Source: Burkholderia sp. BCC0506 (GTDB lineage: Bacteria; Pseudomonadota; Gammaproteobacteria; Burkholderiales; Burkholderiaceae). From it: 64,000 nucleotides of DNA. Position 1 is the first letter of the stretch, and every line of letters begins with the position of its first letter. Location: contig NZ_CADFEN010000004.1 of assembly GCF_902833145.1 (NCBI RefSeq), forward strand, positions 434,001 through 498,000, in the 5' to 3' direction. The position numbers and the translations under genes were made by a program. Positions 54,648 through 64,000 of the stretch are shown here, one piece after another. Below the pieces are notes generated by a model. That model was not told the origin of the DNA. It ran no database searches and saw only the letters and a program-made list of their open reading frames with translations.

Positions 54648-56069
54648 TCAGAATGCATTGCGCCCGATGAAGCCGCGCACCACGGTCATCAGGATGATCT
54701 TCATGTCGAACCAGAAACTCCAGTTCTGCATGTAGAACAGGTCGAACTTCACGCGCGCCTCCATCGCCTCGACCTTGCGCGTTTCGCCGCGATAGCCGTT
54801 CACCTGGGCCCATCCGGTGATGCCGGGCCGCACGCGGTAGCGATACATGTAGCAGTCGATCAGTTGCCGATAGAGGTCGTCGTGTTCGATCGCGTGCGGC
54901 CGCGGGCCGACCACCGACATCTGCCCGAACAGCACGTTGAAGAACTGCGGCAGCTCGTCGAGCGACGTGCGGCGCAGGAACGCGCCGACGCGCGTGATGC
55001 GCGCATCGTTGCGCGACGCCTGCTGCAGAACGCCGGGCTGCACGCGATGCACGCGCATGGTCCGGAACTTCAGGATGTCGAACTCGCGGCCGTCGACGCC
55101 CTTGCGGCGCTGCCTGAACAGCACGGGCCCCGGCGACGACAGCTTGACCGCGATCGCCAGCATCGTCAGCAGCGGCAGCAACGGAATCAGCACGCCGAAC
55201 GCGAACAGCCGGTCGAACGCGAACTTGGCCCACAGCTCAGGCGCGGAGCGAGGCGTGGTCGCGAGATTGATCGCCGGCATGCCCAGCACGTCGGTTGCGG
55301 AACGCTCGACGACCGACATCTGCCGCACGTCGGGCAACAGCCGCAACTCGACGAACTCGTCGCGCAGCTCGCGCACGATGCGCTGGATCCGCCACTCGTG
55401 CGACATCGGCAGCGTGAGCCAGACCTCGTCGATGTCGCCACCGCGAATCAGGTCACGCAATGCGTTCCAGTCGTCGATCACCGGCACGCCGCCGATGCCG
55501 CCCGTGGCGGCCGGTGCATCCGCATCGTCATCGAATACGCACGCGGCCGCGAACGGGCCGTTCGGCGCGAGCTGCATCCGCTCGATCGCCACGCGCCCGT
55601 ACGACGTTGCGCCGACGACGGCGACGCGGCGCTGCCGCGCACGCGGGTCGCCGCGCGTCAGCGCGAGCGCCAGCAACGCCGCGCGGCCGAGCAGCAGCGA
55701 CGCGTCGCCGGCCAGCACCGTGCGCACGATCCACCGGGTCGTGACCGTGCCGCCGCGGTTCATGATCCACATCGTGCCGGCCACCGTCAGCACGCTCGCG
55801 CAAACCACCGCCACCAGCGTGTGCGTCAGCACGTGCGCGCCGCCCTGCACCACCACGCCGCCGCGCACGGTGCGCAGGTAGCGCGGCAGCAGCGCCGCCA
55901 TCAGCACGCACAGCAGCGCGATCGCACCGCGCTGCGCGTCGGACAGGTCGTGCCAGCCGAAACCCGACACCGCCTGCGCGACGAGCGCGCCCGCCAGCAC
56001 GAGCACGACGTCGGCCGCCGCGATCGCGGCACGCCGCATCGCATTCGTTCCACCGGACATCGACCGCAT
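54648..56069 (-). CDS. Exopolysaccharide initiating sugar transferase (WcaJ/undecaprenyl-phosphate glucose-1-P transferase type)
   Basis: A 473-residue polyisoprenylphosphate hexose-1-phosphate transferase. N-terminal hydrophobic segments (four or five, residues about 8-130) and a CoA-binding-like Rossmann region (QRRVAVVGATSYGRVAIERM) precede the C-terminal catalytic sugar transferase domain. That domain carries KFRTMRVHR, RRTSLDELPQFFNVLFGQMSVVGPRP and RPGITGWAQVNGYRGET. It loads the first sugar onto undecaprenyl phosphate for exopolysaccharide assembly. It directly follows a Crp/Fnr gene (3 nt away; a GTG start would overlap it). No other polysaccharide gene is near. Confidence 0.92.
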   Translation of the reverse strand: MRSMSGGTNAMRRAAIAAADVVLVLAGALVAQAVSGFGWHDLSDAQRGAIALLCVLMAALLPRYLRTVRGGVVVQGGAHVLTHTLVAVVCASVLTVAGTMWIMNRGGTVTTRWIVRTVLAGDASLLLGRAALLALALTRGDPRARQRRVAVVGATSYGRVAIERMQLAPNGPFAAACVFDDDADAPAATGGIGGVPVIDDWNALRDLIRGGDIDEVWLTLPMSHEWRIQRIVRELRDEFVELRLLPDVRQMSVVERSATDVLGMPAINLATTPRSAPELWAKFAFDRLFAFGVLIPLLPLLTMLAIAVKLSSPGPVLFRQRRKGVDGREFDILKFRTMRVHRVQPGVLQQASRNDARITRVGAFLRRTSLDELPQFFNVLFGQMSVVGPRPHAIEHDDLYRQLIDCYMYRYRVRPGITGWAQVNGYRGETRKVEAMEARVKFDLFYMQNWSFWFDMKIILMTVVRGFIGRNAF

Positions 56070-56854: not shown

Positions 56855-57775
56855 GTCTGTATCCCTTTTATCGTCCGCGCCGCCTGCAGCCGCATGCACG
56901 GAACTCGTTATCGCGATGCGCGTCCGGACATTGACAGCGGTTGCGGCCCACAACCCTGAGTCCGACTGATCATCGGTTTGTCATTGCCCGATTGAGTCGA
57001 CTGTCCCGTTTCTACACGCCAGCCCGAATAAGCGATTTACGTGCCAATAGCCGCCTGTCCTTAATATATGAATCACGGCCGATTTAGCGCCCCCGAATAA
57101 CCGGCCCCAAAAGCAAAAAAACGTCTCATTTCCGGACACTCCGCCACGCGACGGACACAGCGGACATTCGACTGATCAATTCCCCCGCATCGGGCCAGGA
57201 CGACCGCGCAGCGGCCACGACGCTTATCGTTCAAATACTTACGGCCGCTTTTCAATTGTTTCCGTGATGTGCAGCGCAGCATTTCCCGTCGTCATCGCGC
57301 CGCGCGCGCTCGCTTCAAACTGTCTCAAATTTGAATCGGCACACTGATTTCGGACTCTGTCCGCTACCGCACATATCAATCGTAAACCATTGATACAAAT
57401 GGAAAATAAAGCTGCCCCCGATTATTTGTCAAATAATGTTCAATGCTTTTCCAACGCTTTCGCTGTACGATGCGCAACGTCGTTCGATTGACTCCCTATC
57501 GACATCGAATGACAAGCAAGCACACGATTCCATTTCCGGATGATTAATTCCGGGGAAACGAATCATTAAATCGGCATAACGTTTGCTCTCAATCGCAACC
57601 GTCAAACTTTGTGAAATAGCAAAATGTGGAATTGCCCCGATTCAATTGCGTGCTAGCCTTTTTCGCGAGTATCGTCATTCCGTTTTTTGATCAACAACAG
57701 TCCGCACGATCGTGCGAAATCCCGTTGCGGGGTTCGCCGAAACGACGCGCGACCGCCAACTTGCGAGGATGCGCC
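56855..57775. other. 921-nt AT-rich divergent regulatory gap
   Basis: No gene is seen between the two Crp/Fnr genes. The stretch 56960-57720 is markedly AT-rich for this genome. Related C-run motifs followed by GA(A/T)T recur: GCCCGATTG at 56986, GCCCCCGAATAA at 57089, GCCCCCGATTAT at 57414 and GCCCCGATT at 57634. These may be regulator contacts. Confidence 0.5.
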
Positions 57776-58558
57776 GTGACTCACCAGGCCGCCGACGCCG
57801 TCGCGCACGCGAACGGCATGATCGAGCTTTCCCATAGCCTCGACGCCAACCGGTTTCTCGCGGCCATCGACCGCGACGAACTCGCCACGCTGACGCCCCA
57901 CCTGCAACTCGTCCATCTGAAATCCGGGCAAGTGCTGTGCGAACCCGGCGAAATGCTCGCCGCGGTCTACCTGCCGGTCACGACCGCGATTTCGCTGCAG
58001 TACGTGTCGTCCGGCGGCATGACGCTGGAAGTCGCGGAGATCGGCAGCGAAAGCGTGGTCTGCGACGACGTGATCGGCGGCAGCGGCCGGATGCCCTGCC
58101 GTGCGCTCGCGTGCCGGGACGGCTTCGCCTACCGGCTCGATCGGCGCGTCTTCGCCGCCGCGTTCGATGCGTCGCCGGTGATCCGCCATCTCGTGTTCGT
58201 CTGCGTGCGGCTGCTGATGGCGCAGGTATCGCAGATCACGTTCTGCAGCCGTCATCACGTGCTCAAACATCAGTTGTGCAGATGGTTCCTGCTCGCATTC
58301 GATCGCACGCGCAGCATCGAGATCCAGGTGACGCACAGCATGCTCGCGCAAATGCTCGGCGTACGGCGCGAAACGGTGACGGACGCTGCCGGCGAAATCC
58401 AGAAGCTCGGCCTGATTCGGCAATACCGCAGCTCGATCGAGCTCGCGGACCTCGACGGCCTCGAAAAGATGTCGTGCGGCTGCCGCGCGATCGTGCGCGA
58501 CGAGATGAAGCGCATCCTGTCGGCCGACTCGGGCGTGCCGGCCGCGTCGCGGGCGTGA
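57776..58558 (+). CDS. Crp/Fnr-family transcriptional regulator B
   Basis: A 260-residue regulator with a sensory domain (about 15-130, including CEPGEMLAAVYLPVTTAISLQ) and a winged helix with HSMLAQMLGVRRETVTDAAGEIQKLG. It aligns along its length with regulator A at 56072. A Cys-rich tail (MSCGCRAIVRDEM) may matter, but no iron-sulfur cluster pattern is clear. The GTG at 57776 is chosen because GAGGA lies 8 nt upstream and the length equals regulator A; an ATG 50 codons earlier is in an AT-rich promoter. The next operon starts 180 nt downstream. Confidence 0.87.
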   Translation: MTHQAADAVAHANGMIELSHSLDANRFLAAIDRDELATLTPHLQLVHLKSGQVLCEPGEMLAAVYLPVTTAISLQYVSSGGMTLEVAEIGSESVVCDDVIGGSGRMPCRALACRDGFAYRLDRRVFAAAFDASPVIRHLVFVCVRLLMAQVSQITFCSRHHVLKHQLCRWFLLAFDRTRSIEIQVTHSMLAQMLGVRRETVTDAAGEIQKLGLIRQYRSSIELADLDGLEKMSCGCRAIVRDEMKRILSADSGVPAASRA

Positions 58559-58738: not shown

Positions 58739-58990
58739 GTGAAAAACGAAATCAGAACCATCCTGAAGCACGTCGCCCATCTCGAAGCCGCGATCGATTC
58801 GATCGGCGACGGGGATGACCTCTATGAAGCGGGGCTCTCCTCGCTCGATACGATCCAGCTGATGCTCGCGATCGAGAAGCAGTTCAACATCGAGATTCCC
58901 GACGAGATGCTGAACCGCAACCTGTTCCGCAGCATCGACGCACTCGCGGACACGATCGCCACGCTGCAACGCACCGAGCACTCCGCATGA
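58739..58990 (+). CDS. Acyl/aminoacyl carrier protein
   Basis: An 83-residue carrier protein with the phosphopantetheine attachment Ser35 in AGLSSLDTIQLML, replacing the usual DSL. The length fits stand-alone carrier proteins. Its GTG start has GGAG 8 nt upstream, and the stop overlaps the next ATG (ATGA). Carrier proteins of this type, next to a synthetase-like ligase, accept an amino acid as thioester. A start 20 codons earlier is possible but gives an unusual N-terminus. Confidence 0.87.
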   Translation: MKNEIRTILKHVAHLEAAIDSIGDGDDLYEAGLSSLDTIQLMLAIEKQFNIEIPDEMLNRNLFRSIDALADTIATLQRTEHSA

Positions 58991-60183
58991 GCGCGCTGCT
59001 TCCCGAACTCGCGTCCGACGGCGATTCGCATCGCCTCGACGAGGCCGCGCATGCCGTCGCGCAGATCGCCGCCCAGCATGCCGACGCGGTCGATCGCGAC
59101 GCACGCTGCCCCGTCGAGGCGATCGAGGCGATGCGCGCGCGCCGCCTGCTCGGTGCCATGGTGCCGACCCATCTCGGCGGCGCCGGTGCGTCGCTGGAAG
59201 ACATTGCGTCGGCGTGCTCGATCCTCGGCCAGGCCTGTGCATCGTCGGCGATGGTGTTCGCGATGCACCAGATCCAGGTCGCCTGCATCGTCGACCACGC
59301 CGCCGACCAGGGCTGGCACAAGCTGTTCCTGCAGCAGCTCGTGCGCCACCAGTGGCTGCTCGCGTCGGCCACGTCGGAAGACGGCGTCGGCGGCAACCTG
59401 CGCACGAGCCAGTGCGCGCTCGAAATCGACGGCGGCGGGTTCCGGCTGCGCAAATCGGCGCCGACGATCTCGTACGGCGACTACGCCGACGGCATTCTCG
59501 CCACCGCGCGGCGCGACGCGGATGCGCCCGCTTCCGAGCAGGTGCTCGTCACGTTGCTGCGCGACGGCTATACGCTCACGCGCCGCGGCGAATGGGACAC
59601 GCTCGGCATGCGCGGCACGTGCAGCAACGGCTTCGTGCTCGACGCGCAAGGCGCCGCCGTGCAGTGCCTGCCGGTGCCGTTCGCGAAGATCGCCGAGGAA
59701 ACGATGGTGCCGGTCTCGCACATCCTGTGGGCCGCGGTATGGATCGGCGTGGCCGGCGATGCATTCCACCGCGCGCACCAGTTCTTCCGCGCGCAGGCGC
59801 GCCAGACCGACGGCGCACCGTCGCCCGCCGCGCGGCGCATCGCCGAATCGCTGGCATTGATGCAGGCGATGCAGGCCCGCGTCGACAACGTGCTGCGCCT
59901 CCACGCGAACGCGTCGGCCCGCTCGTGGTCGGCCGGCATGGCCTGGGCCGCCGAGATCAATACGCTGAAGACGTACGTGTCGGCGACCGCGCTCGAAGTC
60001 GCGCACCAGGCGATGATGATCTGCGGAATGGCCGGCTACAAGCAAGGCACGCCGTTCAGCATCGGCCGCCACATCCGCGACCTTCACGCGGCGCCGCTGA
60101 TGATCAGCAACGACCGCATTGCCGCCAACACTGCGAGCCTGTTGCTCGCGCTGCGTCCCGCGACGCTGGAGAAACATACGTGA
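58987..60183 (+). CDS. Acyl-CoA dehydrogenase-fold flavoprotein of the carrier-protein operon
   Basis: A 398-residue FAD protein. It has the N-terminal helical domain (residues about 10-120, with GAMVPTHLGGAGASLEDIA), a beta domain with WDTLGMRGTCSNGFVLDAQG and a C-terminal helical domain ending in MAGYKQGTPFSIGRHIRD. Its neighbours suggest it oxidises an aminoacyl or acyl group carried on the pantetheine arm of the upstream carrier protein, as related enzymes do for prolyl-carrier proteins. The start overlaps the carrier gene and the stop overlaps the ligase gene by 4 nt each. The substrate is unknown. Confidence 0.88.
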   Translation: MSALLPELASDGDSHRLDEAAHAVAQIAAQHADAVDRDARCPVEAIEAMRARRLLGAMVPTHLGGAGASLEDIASACSILGQACASSAMVFAMHQIQVACIVDHAADQGWHKLFLQQLVRHQWLLASATSEDGVGGNLRTSQCALEIDGGGFRLRKSAPTISYGDYADGILATARRDADAPASEQVLVTLLRDGYTLTRRGEWDTLGMRGTCSNGFVLDAQGAAVQCLPVPFAKIAEETMVPVSHILWAAVWIGVAGDAFHRAHQFFRAQARQTDGAPSPAARRIAESLALMQAMQARVDNVLRLHANASARSWSAGMAWAAEINTLKTYVSATALEVAHQAMMICGMAGYKQGTPFSIGRHIRDLHAAPLMISNDRIAANTASLLLALRPATLEKHT

Positions 60184-61154
60184 ACGATCGCCTCGCCGTG
60201 CCCTCCTCCGCCTCCGTTCCCGCCGACGCACCGCTCGACCGTGCGGGCGTCAATCCGCTGCGCGACGCGCTGATCGACGCGGGCCTGCTGGTTTCGACCG
60301 GCATCCAGGGCCTGTTCGGCCGCAGCGAGCGCTTCGAGCGCGTGGTCGAAGCGCTCGATGCGTTCGTCACGCGTATCGGCGCCGACCAGCAGGCCGAAGT
60401 ACTGCGCTTCCCGCCGGCGATGAGCCGCACCGAGTTCGAACGCAGCGAATACATGAAGAGCTTCCCGCAACTGGCGGGCAGCGTGCACGCGTTCTGCGGC
60501 GACGAACGCCAGCACCAGCGCGTGCTGCAATGCCTCGATCGCGGCGACGACTGGACTGAAAGCCAGAAGCCGACCTACGTCGTGATGACGCCGGCCGCAT
60601 GCTACCCCGTGTATCCCGTCGTCGCGCGCGCGGGTGCGCTGCCCGCGGACGGCCGCATCGTCGACGTGTTCTCGTACTGCTTCCGTCACGAACCGTCGCT
60701 CGACCCGACCCGCATGCAGCTGTTCCGGATGCGCGAGTACGTGCGGATCGGCACGCCCGAGCAGATCGTCTCGTTCCGCGAGACGTGGATCGAGCGCGGC
60801 ACGCGGATGATCGAGGCACTGGGCCTGCCGAATGCGATCGATCTCGCGAACGACCCGTTCTTCGGGCGCGGCGGCAAGATCGTCGCGAACAGCCAGCGCG
60901 AACAGAACCTGAAGTTCGAGCTGCTGATTCCGATCGAGCACGACGACCGCCAGACCGCGTGCCTGAGCTTCAACTACCACATGGACCATTTCGGGCTGCT
61001 GTGGGACATCCGCACCGCGACGGGCGACGTCGCGCACACGGGCTGCGTCGGCTTCGGCCTCGAGCGGCTCACGCTCGCGCTGTTCCGCCACCACGGCTTC
61101 GACCTCGACGCGTGGCCGCAAGCAGTCCGCGACGTACTGTGGGGCACGCGATGA
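60180..61154 (+). CDS. Amino acid:[carrier protein] ligase (class II aminoacyl-tRNA synthetase-like)
   Basis: A 324-residue homologue of the catalytic core of archaeal-type seryl-tRNA synthetases without a tRNA-binding domain. Motif 2 (SYCFRHEPSLDPTRMQLFRM) and motif 3 (GFGLERLTLALF) are visible. C141, E186 and C289 match, in spacing, the zinc ligands I recall for the Bradyrhizobium enzyme Bll0957. Such enzymes activate glycine or alanine with ATP and charge a carrier protein. A GTG start overlaps the flavoprotein stop by 4 nt, and its own stop overlaps DUF1839. The amino acid used here is not known. Confidence 0.92.
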   Translation: MNDRLAVPSSASVPADAPLDRAGVNPLRDALIDAGLLVSTGIQGLFGRSERFERVVEALDAFVTRIGADQQAEVLRFPPAMSRTEFERSEYMKSFPQLAGSVHAFCGDERQHQRVLQCLDRGDDWTESQKPTYVVMTPAACYPVYPVVARAGALPADGRIVDVFSYCFRHEPSLDPTRMQLFRMREYVRIGTPEQIVSFRETWIERGTRMIEALGLPNAIDLANDPFFGRGGKIVANSQREQNLKFELLIPIEHDDRQTACLSFNYHMDHFGLLWDIRTATGDVAHTGCVGFGLERLTLALFRHHGFDLDAWPQAVRDVLWGTR

Positions 61155-62206
61155 GATTCGTTTCCCGCGACGGCGAAGACGCATCGTTCGAGAGCGTTCG
61201 CCACCGCGCGCGTCACTACCGGCCGCATCCGCTGCATAGCCAGGAGATGGTCTGGAAGCAGACCAACTGCTATGTCGACATGTGGCTCGAGGTGCTCCGG
61301 TGGTGGGGCCTCAATCCGTACGCGGCGCTGCCGTTTACGATCGCGCTCGATTTCGAGGGCGACCAGTTCACGTTCTTCAAGTTTCCGCACGACGAGCTGG
61401 AGCGGCTTTACGGGATCGTCGTGCAGGAACATTCGATCTACGAGCCGCTCGACCAGCACATCGAGACGCAGGTCGCGCGCGGCCACCTGATGATCGTCGA
61501 GGTCGACGCGTGGTTCCTGCCCGACACGCGCGGCAGCAGCTACCGCACGCAGCACACGAAAACGACGATCGGCATCGACGCGATCGACCGCGCGAAGCAC
61601 CAGATCGGCTATTTCCACAACAGCGGCTATTACGTCGCCGAGGATTTCGACTACAACGGGCTCGTCGGCAGCAGTTCGCCGATGACGCTGCCGCCGTACG
61701 TCGAATGCGCGAAGCGACGCTTCGCACCGCTCGACGAGCGCGCGCTCTGCGAGGCCTCGCTAGCCGCGCTGCAACGCCACCTGCGGCGTCTGCCGGTCGT
61801 CGATCCGATCGCGGCATTCCGCCGGCAGTTGCAGACCGACGCGCACCTCCTCGCGGCAGCGCCGCTCGAGCGCTTCCATGCGTACTCGTTCAATTCGGTG
61901 CGGCAGCTCGGCGCGAATTTCGAACTGTTCGGCCACTATGCGCGCTGGCTGCAAGCGAGCGGCTGCATCGGGCCGTTCGCCGAGATCCGCGCCGCGTGCG
62001 ATCGCATCGCGTCCGAAGCGATGGTGCTGGAATTCCGGCTCGCGCGCGCGTGCGCTCGCGGCAAGGAAGAACGCGGCGATTCGACGCTCGAGGCGATCCA
62101 GGCTGCGTATGCCGACGTCGTCGCGTGCGCGCGGCAGATCGCCGCGCCGTTGCGGCACGTGACGCCCGTGCGCGGCGACACGGCGCCCGTGTCGGTCATG
62201 CGGTGA
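61151..62206 (+). CDS. DUF1839 family protein
   Basis: A 351-residue protein that I recognise as DUF1839, function unknown. It starts MRFVSRDGEDASFESVRHRA, with HSQEMVWKQTNCYVDMWLE and a QHTKTTIGIDAIDRAKHQIGY segment. No signal peptide or membrane segment is seen, so it is cytoplasmic. The family commonly accompanies carrier-protein ligases, so it may act downstream on the aminoacyl carrier protein, for example as a transferase; this is inference. It overlaps the preceding and following genes by 4 nt each. Confidence 0.85.
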   Translation: MRFVSRDGEDASFESVRHRARHYRPHPLHSQEMVWKQTNCYVDMWLEVLRWWGLNPYAALPFTIALDFEGDQFTFFKFPHDELERLYGIVVQEHSIYEPLDQHIETQVARGHLMIVEVDAWFLPDTRGSSYRTQHTKTTIGIDAIDRAKHQIGYFHNSGYYVAEDFDYNGLVGSSSPMTLPPYVECAKRRFAPLDERALCEASLAALQRHLRRLPVVDPIAAFRRQLQTDAHLLAAAPLERFHAYSFNSVRQLGANFELFGHYARWLQASGCIGPFAEIRAACDRIASEAMVLEFRLARACARGKEERGDSTLEAIQAAYADVVACARQIAAPLRHVTPVRGDTAPVSVMR

Positions 62207-64000
62207 CGCGCGCGCGCACCCTGCCCGCGTGGTCGATGCTGGCGACGGCCGCGGGCGCCGTGCGGGAACCGCGCGAGCTCCCGGCCGACCACGCCGGCTG
62301 GATCGCGGCGCCGGTGCCCGGCACGGTCGCGCAAGCGCTCGCGCTGGCCGGCCGGCTCGACGAAGCCGCGTCGCTCGACGAGCGCGACCACTGGTACCGC
62401 CTGGAGCTGCGCGGGCGCGGGCCGCGCATCCTGCGCTTTCACGGCCTCGCGACGCTCGCGCAGGCCTGGCTCGACGACACGCCGATCCACCGCTCGGACA
62501 GCATGTTCGTCGCGCACGACGTGCCCGTGTCGCTCGACGGCACGCATCGGCTGACCGTCTGCTTCCGCGCGCTCGCACCGCACCTGCGCGACGCGCGCGC
62601 ACCGCGCCGTGCGCGCTGGCGCACGCGGCTCGCCGAGCCCGCGGGGCTGCGCACGATCCGCACGTCGCTGTTCGGGCACATGCCCGGCTGGTTTCCGCCC
62701 TATGTGCCCACCGGCCCGTGGCGGCCCGTCGACGTGCTCGATCCGGCCGACGGACCCGTTCTGACCAATTGCAACCTGCTGGCACGCGTCGAAGGCGACA
62801 CGGGCTGGCTCGATGCGGAACTGACGTTCGCCGCGCCGCTGCCCGACGCGTTCGCGGCGCGGCTGTCGTGCGGCGAACATCACGCGACGCTCGAACGTGC
62901 CGGCGCCGAGCGGCTGTGCACGAGCGTCGCGATACCGAACGTGCGCCGCTGGTGGCCCCATACGCACGGCGATCCGGCGCTCTACGAGATCGCGCTGCAT
63001 ATCGGCGATGCGCGCCGGCCGCTCGGCACGACGGGTTTCCGCACGATCGACGTCGATAGCGGCGCCGACGGCAAGGGATTCGGCCTGCGCATCAACGGCG
63101 TGCCGGTGTTCGCGCGCGGCGCATGCTGGAGCAGCGCCGCGCCGCTCGCGCTGCACGCGGACGACGCGACCTACGGCCGCCTGCTCGGGCTCGCGCGCGA
63201 CGCCGGCTTCAACATGATCCGCGTCGGCGGCACGATGACCTACGAGGCCGACGCGTTCCACGCGTGGTGCGACCGGCTCGGCCTGCTGGTCTGGCAGGAC
63301 TTCGGTTTCGCGAACTTCGACTACGCGCTCGACGATCCCGCGTTCGCGGCCAACGTCGATCGCGAAGCGAACCAGTTCCTCTCGCGTCGCGGCGCGTCGC
63401 CGTCGCTCGCGGTGCTGTGCGGCGGCAGCGAGATCGCGCAGCAGGCCGCGATGTCGGGACTCGGGCCGAAGCAGCGCTTCCTCGAGCTGACGGCCGACCG
63501 GCTGGCCGGCCACGCGGCCGCGCGCCGCCCCGATGTTCCGTACGTGCCCGATTCGCCCGACGGCGGCGTCCTGCCGTTCACGCCGCGCGAACGCGTGTCG
63601 CACTACTACGGCGTCGGTGCGTACCTGCGCCCGCTCGACGATGCGCGCCGCGCGGACGTGCGCTTCGCGAGCGAATGCCTCGCGTTCGCGAACGTGCCGT
63701 GCGACGCGACGCTCGCCGAACTCGGCTGGCCCGGCGTGCACGAGCCGCGCTGGAAGGCGGCCGTGCCACGCGACCCCGGCACGTCGTGGGATTTCGACGA
63801 TATCCGCGACCACTATCTGCAGACGCTGTACGACGTCGCGCCCGACCGGCTGCGGCGCGAGGATCCGGCACGCTATGTCGAGCTGTCGCGCGCGGCGATC
63901 GCGGACGCGATGCGCGAGACGTTTTCAGAATGGCGACGCGCCGGCTCGCGTTGCGCCGGCGCACTCGTGTGGCAGTTCCAGGACGTGATGCCGGGCGCCG
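62203..64000 (+). CDS. Glycoside hydrolase family 2 (beta-mannosidase-like), truncated by the window end
   Basis: At least 599 codons are open to the end of the window. The N-terminal sugar-binding domain is followed by a barrel with INGVPVFARGACWSS, NMIRVGGTMTYEADAFHAW and LLVWQDFGFANFDYA, typical of GH2. E410 (CGGSEIAQQ) is the candidate acid/base. E491 (ASECLAFANV) fits the nucleophile position. No signal peptide is apparent, so it should be cytoplasmic. The GTG start overlaps DUF1839 by 4 nt. The C-terminus and following genes lie outside the window. A mannose- or glucose-linked substrate is only a guess. Confidence 0.85.
   Translation, partial: MTRARTLPAWSMLATAAGAVREPRELPADHAGWIAAPVPGTVAQALALAGRLDEAASLDERDHWYRLELRGRGPRILRFHGLATLAQAWLDDTPIHRSDSMFVAHDVPVSLDGTHRLTVCFRALAPHLRDARAPRRARWRTRLAEPAGLRTIRTSLFGHMPGWFPPYVPTGPWRPVDVLDPADGPVLTNCNLLARVEGDTGWLDAELTFAAPLPDAFAARLSCGEHHATLERAGAERLCTSVAIPNVRRWWPHTHGDPALYEIALHIGDARRPLGTTGFRTIDVDSGADGKGFGLRINGVPVFARGACWSSAAPLALHADDATYGRLLGLARDAGFNMIRVGGTMTYEADAFHAWCDRLGLLVWQDFGFANFDYALDDPAFAANVDREANQFLSRRGASPSLAVLCGGSEIAQQAAMSGLGPKQRFLELTADRLAGHAAARRPDVPYVPDSPDGGVLPFTPRERVSHYYGVGAYLRPLDDARRADVRFASECLAFANVPCDATLAELGWPGVHEPRWKAAVPRDPGTSWDFDDIRDHYLQTLYDVAPDRLRREDPARYVELSRAAIADAMRETFSEWRRAGSRCAGALVWQFQDVMPGA

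Follow-up and report, generated by a model that had tools for sequence, protein, structure and literature searches.

A predicted carrier-protein pathway that would attach aminoacyl groups to a surface glycan of Burkholderia, with DUF1839 as putative condensing enzyme

A 64,000-nucleotide stretch of the 7.29-Mb genome of Burkholderia sp. BCC0506 (contig NZ_CADFEN010000004.1, positions 434,001 to 498,000; hereafter the window) ends within an operon of five overlapping genes. These encode a stand-alone carrier protein (CP), a flavoprotein of the acyl-CoA dehydrogenase (ACAD) fold, an amino acid:[carrier protein] ligase, a DUF1839 protein and a glycosidase of family GH2. We propose that this cassette makes an aminoacyl donor and transfers it to decorate a surface glycan, with DUF1839 as the condensing enzyme, a reading to which we give roughly an even chance (about 0.5). 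Neither the operon nor its general purpose is a new observation. In the available text of a 2010 paper by Iyer and Aravind (PMC2922099), a note in proof lists together a ligase, an acyl carrier protein, a redox enzyme, the uncharacterised Atu2574, a glycosidase and liposaccharide genes; the note proposes that an amino acid is ligated to the amino group of a surface sugar. That account and ours share the neighbourhood, the broad prediction and the Atu2574-type protein as ligase; it differs in calling the redox enzyme Rossmann-fold, and its available text draws no link to CcbD, to the tandem hydrolase described below or to the bep context. What appears new is the likely family of DUF1839 as a transfer enzyme, a tandem alpha/beta hydrolase as sixth partner of the cassette, and the place of the cassette in a biofilm-polysaccharide locus.

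The DUF1839 protein (61151..62206, plus strand; 351 residues; Pfam DUF1839, E = 4.2e-127) matches CcbD, CtaG and AziU over its whole domain when folds are compared, and no relevant solved structure was found for it by sequence search. With CcbD/LmbD, the condensing enzyme of celesticetin and lincomycin, and with CtaG and AziU2-U3, it shares this fold and probably a Cys nucleophile. CcbD, according to the portions of the literature available, joins CP-bound proline to an amino sugar and forms an amide; as in the cassette, its partner CP is loaded with an amino acid. Among 109 aligned DUF1839 copies, C40 is present in 105, and H156 and D167 are invariant. The third catalytic residue may be T/S138 (numbered in this analysis) or D167. 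A 2023 survey (PMC10318531), in its available text, places the family among the papain-like folds, names a C(T/S)H triad for it and speculates that it processes cell-wall glycans. Fold and conserved residues together lead us to predict that DUF1839 is a putative CP-dependent condensing or acyl-transfer enzyme that uses Cys.

Each of the four copies lacking the Cys (4/109) is accompanied at its own locus by another copy that contains it, and two further Cys-less copies carry Arg and Gln in its place. In four Cupriavidus loci (L079, L093, L104 and L115), the operon DUF1839 has Arg for Cys, and the second copy in the locus keeps the Cys; L047 and L048 are listed with this case. A Cys-less operon copy is possibly a pseudoenzyme partner.

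The ligase (60180..61154, plus strand; 324 residues, GTG start; tRNA-synt_2b, E = 1.2e-7) matches the Bll0957 structures 4h2w and 3mey over residues 29-320 (E = 4.1e-96 and 1.8e-93) and scores 560.9 bits against NF005479 (cut-off 357). By sequence it is a seryl-tRNA synthetase (SerRS)-derived amino acid:[carrier protein] ligase, orthologous to Bll0957, as the initial annotation of the window had it. PF00587, the class II synthetase core, is its sole Pfam domain, which bears out the earlier statement that tRNA-binding domains are lacking. C141, E186 and C289 are kept in 97/97 aligned homologues. The conservation behind their designation as zinc ligands thus holds; the ligand role itself follows from their equivalents in Bll0957, which we take to bind zinc. 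The entry for the solved ortholog structure is titled 'amino acid--[acyl-carrier-protein] ligase 1'. Orthologs presumably load glycine or alanine. Bradyrhizobium Bll0957 has the same three conserved positions and a stand-alone CP partner, but the charging step is the only one described in the available sources, in which we met no biochemical work on the remaining four genes. That ligases of this type charge a CP has been published (available portions of PMC2922099 and PMC9437257). The CP of the window (58739..58990, plus strand; 83 residues, GTG start; PF00550 PP-binding, E = 2.8e-11) scores 147.9 bits against NCBIfam NF005480 (cut-off 72), retains the phosphopantetheine serine S35 along with all aligned homologues (99/99), and also has a weak match to DltC.

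The flavoprotein (58987..60183, plus strand; 398 residues; PF02771/PF00441, Acyl-CoA_dh_N, E = 1.5e-10) is about equally similar to nitrososynthases and to dehydrogenases. A single-sequence search of solved structures returned DnmZ as best match, followed by 3m9v and 4kcf, with an ACAD fourth. The 4kcf/3m9v title is 'FAD-dependent oxidoreductase', and we take these entries to be KijD3. In a profile search, the short-chain ACAD 7p98 came first at 90.6 bits, with nitrososynthase-type entries next at 80-82 bits. At position 373, which we take from the RD motif to be the site of the classical ACAD base, 99 sequences have Ile (96), Val (2) or Arg (1) and never Glu, so that the catalytic Glu before the last helix is missing from its canonical position. 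The fold that the initial annotation gave this protein stands, and plain dehydrogenation appears unproven from the sequences. If the substrate is glycine, ordinary alpha,beta-dehydrogenation is impossible because glycine has no beta carbon; imine formation or N- or C-oxygenation would remain. A prolyl-CP dehydrogenase was considered and rejected: PigA scores 29.9 and RedW 18.1 bits, compared with 102 for the best model.

The GH2 protein (62203..64689, plus strand; 828 residues, GTG start; Glyco_hydro_2_N2, E = 3.4e-10), whose gene was read beyond the window end at 64000, matches 5n6u (E = 1.7e-39; 6e-84 in the profile search). Its acid/base E410 and nucleophile E491 are present in 94/94 homologues, each aligned with a Glu of 2vjx. 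By family and by both catalytic Glu residues, it is a putative beta-mannosidase-like enzyme.

All four junctions of the operon are 4-nucleotide ATGA or GTGA overlaps. Coordinates, overlaps and the five protein families (each with its Pfam match) agree with the initial annotation. The comparison across genomes that it called for finds CP, ACAD, ligase, DUF1839 and GH2 in this order on one strand in 95/106 loci, the window counted, from Burkholderia, Paraburkholderia, Caballeronia, Cupriavidus, Mycetohabitans, Azospirillum and rhizobia. The operon is thus not a chance assembly. The set is mainly Burkholderiaceae and was mainly collected through DUF1839, with five plasmid loci collected through the ligase; at least three pairs (L142/L150, L147/L071 and L144/L103) look like one record each. 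Of the 11 exceptions, four are clipped by locus or contig ends (L059, L060, L079 and L148), L113 lacks GH2, L145 has DUF1839 flipped, and five are reduced or remnant (L076, L077, L084, L122 and L127). Overlaps of 4 nucleotides at all four junctions are less general than the gene order, and occur in 19/91 scored loci. Distance matrices of the five proteins correlate with r of 0.83-0.91 (39 representatives, with no correction for species phylogeny). The window's genome has one DUF1839 and one ligase of the SerRS-derived type, which are 95.7% and 97.5% identical to those of the B. cenocepacia plasmid-collection record NZ_CP091013.1, so that the strain probably belongs to the Burkholderia cepacia complex.

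The sixth partner is a two-domain alpha/beta hydrolase of ~590-620 residues, whose gene accompanies the cassettes of Azospirillum, Rhizobium, Phyllobacterium and Mycetohabitans at close range. In the window's genome, this gene is found ~17 kb beyond the operon, surrounded by genes for polysaccharide synthesis (G000:C4:515882-517735). At a cut-off that we set at E 1e-35, the hydrolase is found in 17 of 398 Pseudomonadota genomes, which are all 16 genomes with DUF1839 plus G020. In a family sample of 299 genomes, 126 have both, 15 have DUF1839 only and eight have the hydrolase only. Fisher values for co-occurrence, with phylogeny ignored, are 1.2e-27 and 5.4e-56. In Rhizobium sp. NLR16a, the hydrolase carries an N-terminal flippase domain (PF13440), and loci L129 and L131 match this entire 1103-residue protein. 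Five of the eight hydrolase-only genomes have the ligase, which adjoins the hydrolase in four of them; L191 and L192 contain the run CP-ACAD-ligase-hydrolase in a genome without DUF1839, and the 20 kb scanned around it contain no GH2 of this kind. Because ligase and hydrolase are neighbours in genomes that lack DUF1839, they form a core that is able to exist without it. In L189 (G072) and L190 (G048), the tandem hydrolase is flanked by two ligase copies, with glycosyltransferases and a flippase nearby in L189; no cassette-type CP or ACAD was detected within 20 kb in either.

The two halves of the hydrolase are unequal. Of 37 aligned rows, one was a flippase and was excluded, and L142 and L150 represent a single record. 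GxCxG occurs in the C-terminal half of 36/36, with Asp and His in 35/35 of those reaching that far; in the N-terminal half, the nucleophile position is taken by Arg (27) or Gly (9). Four further hydrolases agree with this pattern of a C-half Cys and an N half without nucleophile. A structural model (predicted local distance difference test, pLDDT, 80.7; predicted template modelling score, pTM, 0.84) has generic alpha/beta hydrolases among its best 50 Foldseek matches. The two halves find their relatives in TIGR03101 and TIGR03100, the hydrolases of exosortase-A loci. Scores against TIGR03100 and TIGR03101 are 67.6 and 64.6 bits, below the cut-offs of 168.45 and 202.75; the proteins are related to these families and are not members.

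Exosortase-A loci (TIGR03098 with TIGR03100/TIGR03101) offer a parallel. The TIGR03098 ligase is above cut-off in 14/80 Burkholderiales genomes, and 15 kb were scanned per locus. Eight of these loci have the hydrolase pair beside a weak CP match in an open reading frame (16-32 bits), fused in two; one has the C half only, at an edge, and five, including that of the window's own genome, have none. The elbows read GLCD[AG] in 9/9 and LRxG in 8/8, which is the same Cys/Arg signature. Hydrolases 1 and 2 of these loci are fused in L176 and L177 and are neighbours in L178, L181, L183 and L185-L187. The hydrolase-2 type has Arg at the nucleophile site, and 'hydrolase' may be a misnomer for it. Exosortase-A loci and the cassette thus share a CP match beside a Cys/Arg hydrolase pair, but the exosortase-A ligase is of the acyl-CoA-ligase type, whereas that of the cassette is derived from a class II synthetase.

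The place of the cassette in Burkholderia further suggests a link to polysaccharides. According to the available literature, bepA-L of B. cenocepacia are Bcam1330-1341, berB is Bcam1342 and berA is Bcam1349. In strain NCTC13227, which we take to be J2315, the order is WcaJ, Crp, BerA, the five-gene cassette, BerB, GNAT, ManC and beta-helix, then two glycosyltransferases, flippase, glycosyltransferase, tandem hydrolase, OafA, DUF6418 membrane protein, Wzc and Wza. Because this order fits the published bep gene list read backwards (PMC3584217, Table 2, available in part), the cassette sits between Bcam1342 and Bcam1349; Bcam1343-1348 are not named in the literature searched. The window's flanks follow the same order (WcaJ 93%, BerA 92%, BerB 99%, GNAT 92% and ManC 97% identity), as does its cassette (CP 100%, ACAD 98%, ligase 98%, DUF1839 95% and GH2 94%). 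The extension past 64000 that the initial annotation suggested meets, after the end of GH2, the second regulator, polysaccharide genes and the tandem hydrolase. Here the window's strain departs from the bep locus in both content and order: Wzc is 28% and the hydrolase 46% identical, and OafA, a family 2 glycosyltransferase (GT2) and a 441-residue gene product have no match in the NCTC13227 stretch, so that the window's polymer is not Bep. The identification with Bep was therefore dropped. B. cenocepacia CMCC(B)23006 likewise shares the flanks and has another polymer set (Wzc 31%, hydrolase 44% and cassette 95-100% relative to the window).

Across Burkholderia, BerB orthologs are present in 37/37 cassette-bearing genomes and 0/4 without the cassette (cut-off 784 bits, next-best 550), and a window-type Wzc in 22/37 and 0/4 (cut-off 73% identity, next-best 46%); both cut-offs were chosen after seeing the gap. 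In the 15 genomes without the window-type Wzc, the hydrolase is 38-57% identical to that of the window. Four such loci were opened (L164-L167). They retain BerB (95-99%), ManC (90-98%) and, in the two loci that reach it, GH2 (92-97%), and have Wzc at 29-31% and the hydrolase at 37-48%; flippase, Wza and beta-helix keep 45-72% identity in L166 and L167. A window-type control, L168, has Wzc at 95% and the hydrolase at 94% over 266 residues. The polymer genes and their hydrolase are thus replaced as one segment, and the cassette and regulators stay. This fits a constant donor pathway with a variable acceptor-side enzyme. At least four polymer gene sets occupy the bep position between near-identical flanks (L194, L196-L197, L164-L168 and the window), an arrangement like the serotype exchange of capsule loci.

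The window also contains the flanking genes upstream. An undecaprenyl-phosphate glucose phosphotransferase of the WcaJ type (54648..56060, minus strand, 5' end approximate; TIGR03023, 469.7 bits, cut-off 410.75) may initiate synthesis of the polysaccharide. Immediately before the operon, at the berA (Bcam1349) position, is a Crp/Fnr-type regulator (57626..58558, plus strand, start codon approximate; PF13545, E = 7.8e-14) that is 92% identical to the same-place gene of NCTC13227. No terminator-like site was found between this gene and that of the CP. Directly downstream of the operon is BerB, a sigma-54 regulator that carries a VpsR domain and is encoded in the convergent direction. Searches for sigma-54 promoters were uninformative, with eight matches in L002 (at most 2 mismatches; 6.5 expected) and two in the window (at most 1 mismatch; 1.04 expected), and a sigma-70 scan found one against 0.7 expected. 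Each of the five reduced or remnant loci retains a DUF1839 frame in a broken cassette, together with a berA-like regulator.

Outside Burkholderia, the neighbours of alphaproteobacterial loci include class II synthetases (4), Radical SAM proteins (4), GNVR (3), ABC (3) and Wzz (2). This tally covers 64 proteins that we chose from 143 unlabelled candidates plus the L130 flippase; among the first 25 of 83 families (the rest have one or two each), none dominates besides the hydrolase. In Rhizobium sp. NLR16a, the cassette is directly preceded, up to 12.6 kb of L153, by efp, epmA and a gene resembling lysine-2,3-aminomutase. The class II synthetases and Radical SAM proteins of the tally are probably the same epmA/aminomutase-like pair at other loci, probably L129, L131, L133 and L134, which we take to be rhizobial.

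We envisage the following pathway. The ligase would activate a small amino acid with ATP and load it onto the CP, as has been shown for such ligases elsewhere. The flavoprotein might then oxidise or oxygenate the CP-bound aminoacyl group. Cys40 of DUF1839 would take over the acyl group and join it to an acceptor, most likely the amine of an amino sugar or similar; this step is proposed because of the fold and conserved residues, with CcbD acting on CP-bound proline and an amino sugar as the parallel. GH2 may act on a beta-linked sugar, perhaps of the mannose type, in the acceptor or in an intermediate. Finally, the tandem hydrolase, with its C-half Cys as nucleophile, would pass the group to a lipid-linked glycan, or edit it there, before export, as suggested by co-occurrence, by the flippase fusion in Rhizobium and by exchange with the polysaccharide genes. 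In Burkholderia, the pathway would serve the polysaccharide of the neighbouring genes, which is Bep in B. cenocepacia and a different set in the window's strain. The outline of charging, oxidation and transfer that the initial annotation sketched thus appears right, as do its families and coupling; plain dehydrogenation is unproven, the earlier publication of the charging and of the neighbourhood had been missed, and the regulator upstream of the operon had not been drawn on.

Several observations weigh against this pathway. The profile search with DUF1839 gave no sequence link to the CcbD, CtaG or AziU enzymes, and the predicted triad would be Cys-His-Thr/Ser, not Cys-His-Glu. AziU enzymes, which we understand to make an aziridine, share the fold, so a fold match does not equal function. 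In the family sample, 15/141 DUF1839 genomes lack the hydrolase; nine of these lack the ligase (E 1e-40), G297 has a partial ligase with a stop, and five have the ligase. The Bep repeat (Gal, Glc, Gal, Man), as described in the available text, has no amino sugar or substituent, and an amide on Bep therefore has no obvious acceptor. A screen of ~6000 transposon mutants gave ten in six bep genes, and names none of Bcam1343-1348 in the text available. No glycosyltransferase, flippase or polymerase is annotated within 13.5 kb before or ~10-12 kb after the cassettes of Azospirillum lipoferum and Phyllobacterium plasmids, nor around that of Rhizobium rhizoryzae, which is covered for 3 kb downstream and has one acyltransferase; the gene table is incomplete. 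That the window's polymer is not Bep leaves our estimate unchanged, because it brought out more clearly how polymer genes are swapped next to a cassette that stays constant.

The missing acceptor would be accounted for if the same relay makes an ester on exopolysaccharide hydroxyls, in the manner of D-alanylation by Dlt or glycinylation by Alm, with the Cys-type hydrolase as transferase. Bep was extracted in 0.3 M NaOH and its spectra read in NaOD, according to the available text, and such an alkaline preparation would remove esters, not amides. Moreover, it is the hydrolase, not DUF1839, that the cassette-bearing loci have in common with the minimal operon of two genomes and with exosortase-A polysaccharide loci, and different polysaccharide gene sets accompany different hydrolases. 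However, CcbD forms an amide, as does CtaG, and the literature searched yielded no report of an ester. Donor loading and transfer also appear cytosolic (no signal peptides were seen by eye), whereas the transfer step of Dlt and Alm takes place on the outer side of the inner membrane. We consider ester formation unlikely.

A soluble aminoacyl-sugar metabolite, such as a signal, a siderophore or an antibiotic-like compound (compare the lincosamides), is a different kind of product, for which the polysaccharide neighbours would reflect shared control only. CcbD, CtaG and AziU belong to antibiotic-type pathways, and the plasmid cassettes of Azospirillum and rhizobia without annotated assembly genes would be expected. 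This explanation sits poorly with the fusion of the tandem hydrolase to a polysaccharide flippase domain in Rhizobium and with its membership of the exchanged polysaccharide segment in Burkholderia; ABC transporter domains occur in 3/64 neighbours and are the sole transporter family within the 25 leading families of 83. A small-molecule product thus seems quite improbable. ACAD and GH2 are also common catabolic families, and together with a housekeeping-like CP they might have been joined by chance. The order conserved from Burkholderiaceae to Azospirillum and rhizobia, the correlated distance matrices and the co-occurrence with the tandem hydrolase make this extremely improbable, and it was rejected on conserved order and hydrolase co-occurrence.

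Returning to aminoacyl decoration of a glycan, we tentatively suggest a broader and rather doubtful possibility, that a general CP relay decorates exopolysaccharides by means of a charging ligase, a CP and an alpha/beta hydrolase that acts through Cys and is paired with an inactive counterpart. In this relay, exosortase-A loci would use an acyl-CoA-ligase-type enzyme. The cassette would use a ligase derived from a tRNA synthetase together with a CcbD-like enzyme, and would place an amino acid, perhaps oxidised, on a matrix polysaccharide under cyclic di-GMP (c-di-GMP) control, which in B. cenocepacia would be Bep and would have been missed by alkaline extraction. Dlt and Alm follow the same ligase-CP-transferase logic for decoration of surface polymers, but with other ligase and transferase folds.

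Amino acid:[carrier protein] ligases look like biochemical orphans, in that the core of an aminoacyl-tRNA synthetase charges a CP. A putative condensing enzyme, a sixth partner and a product locus make the purpose of this charging directly testable, and the product locus in B. cenocepacia is that of a structurally analysed, c-di-GMP-regulated biofilm polysaccharide. If the proposal is true, amino-acid decoration with an exchangeable acceptor-side enzyme would add to the ways in which biofilm matrices are tuned.

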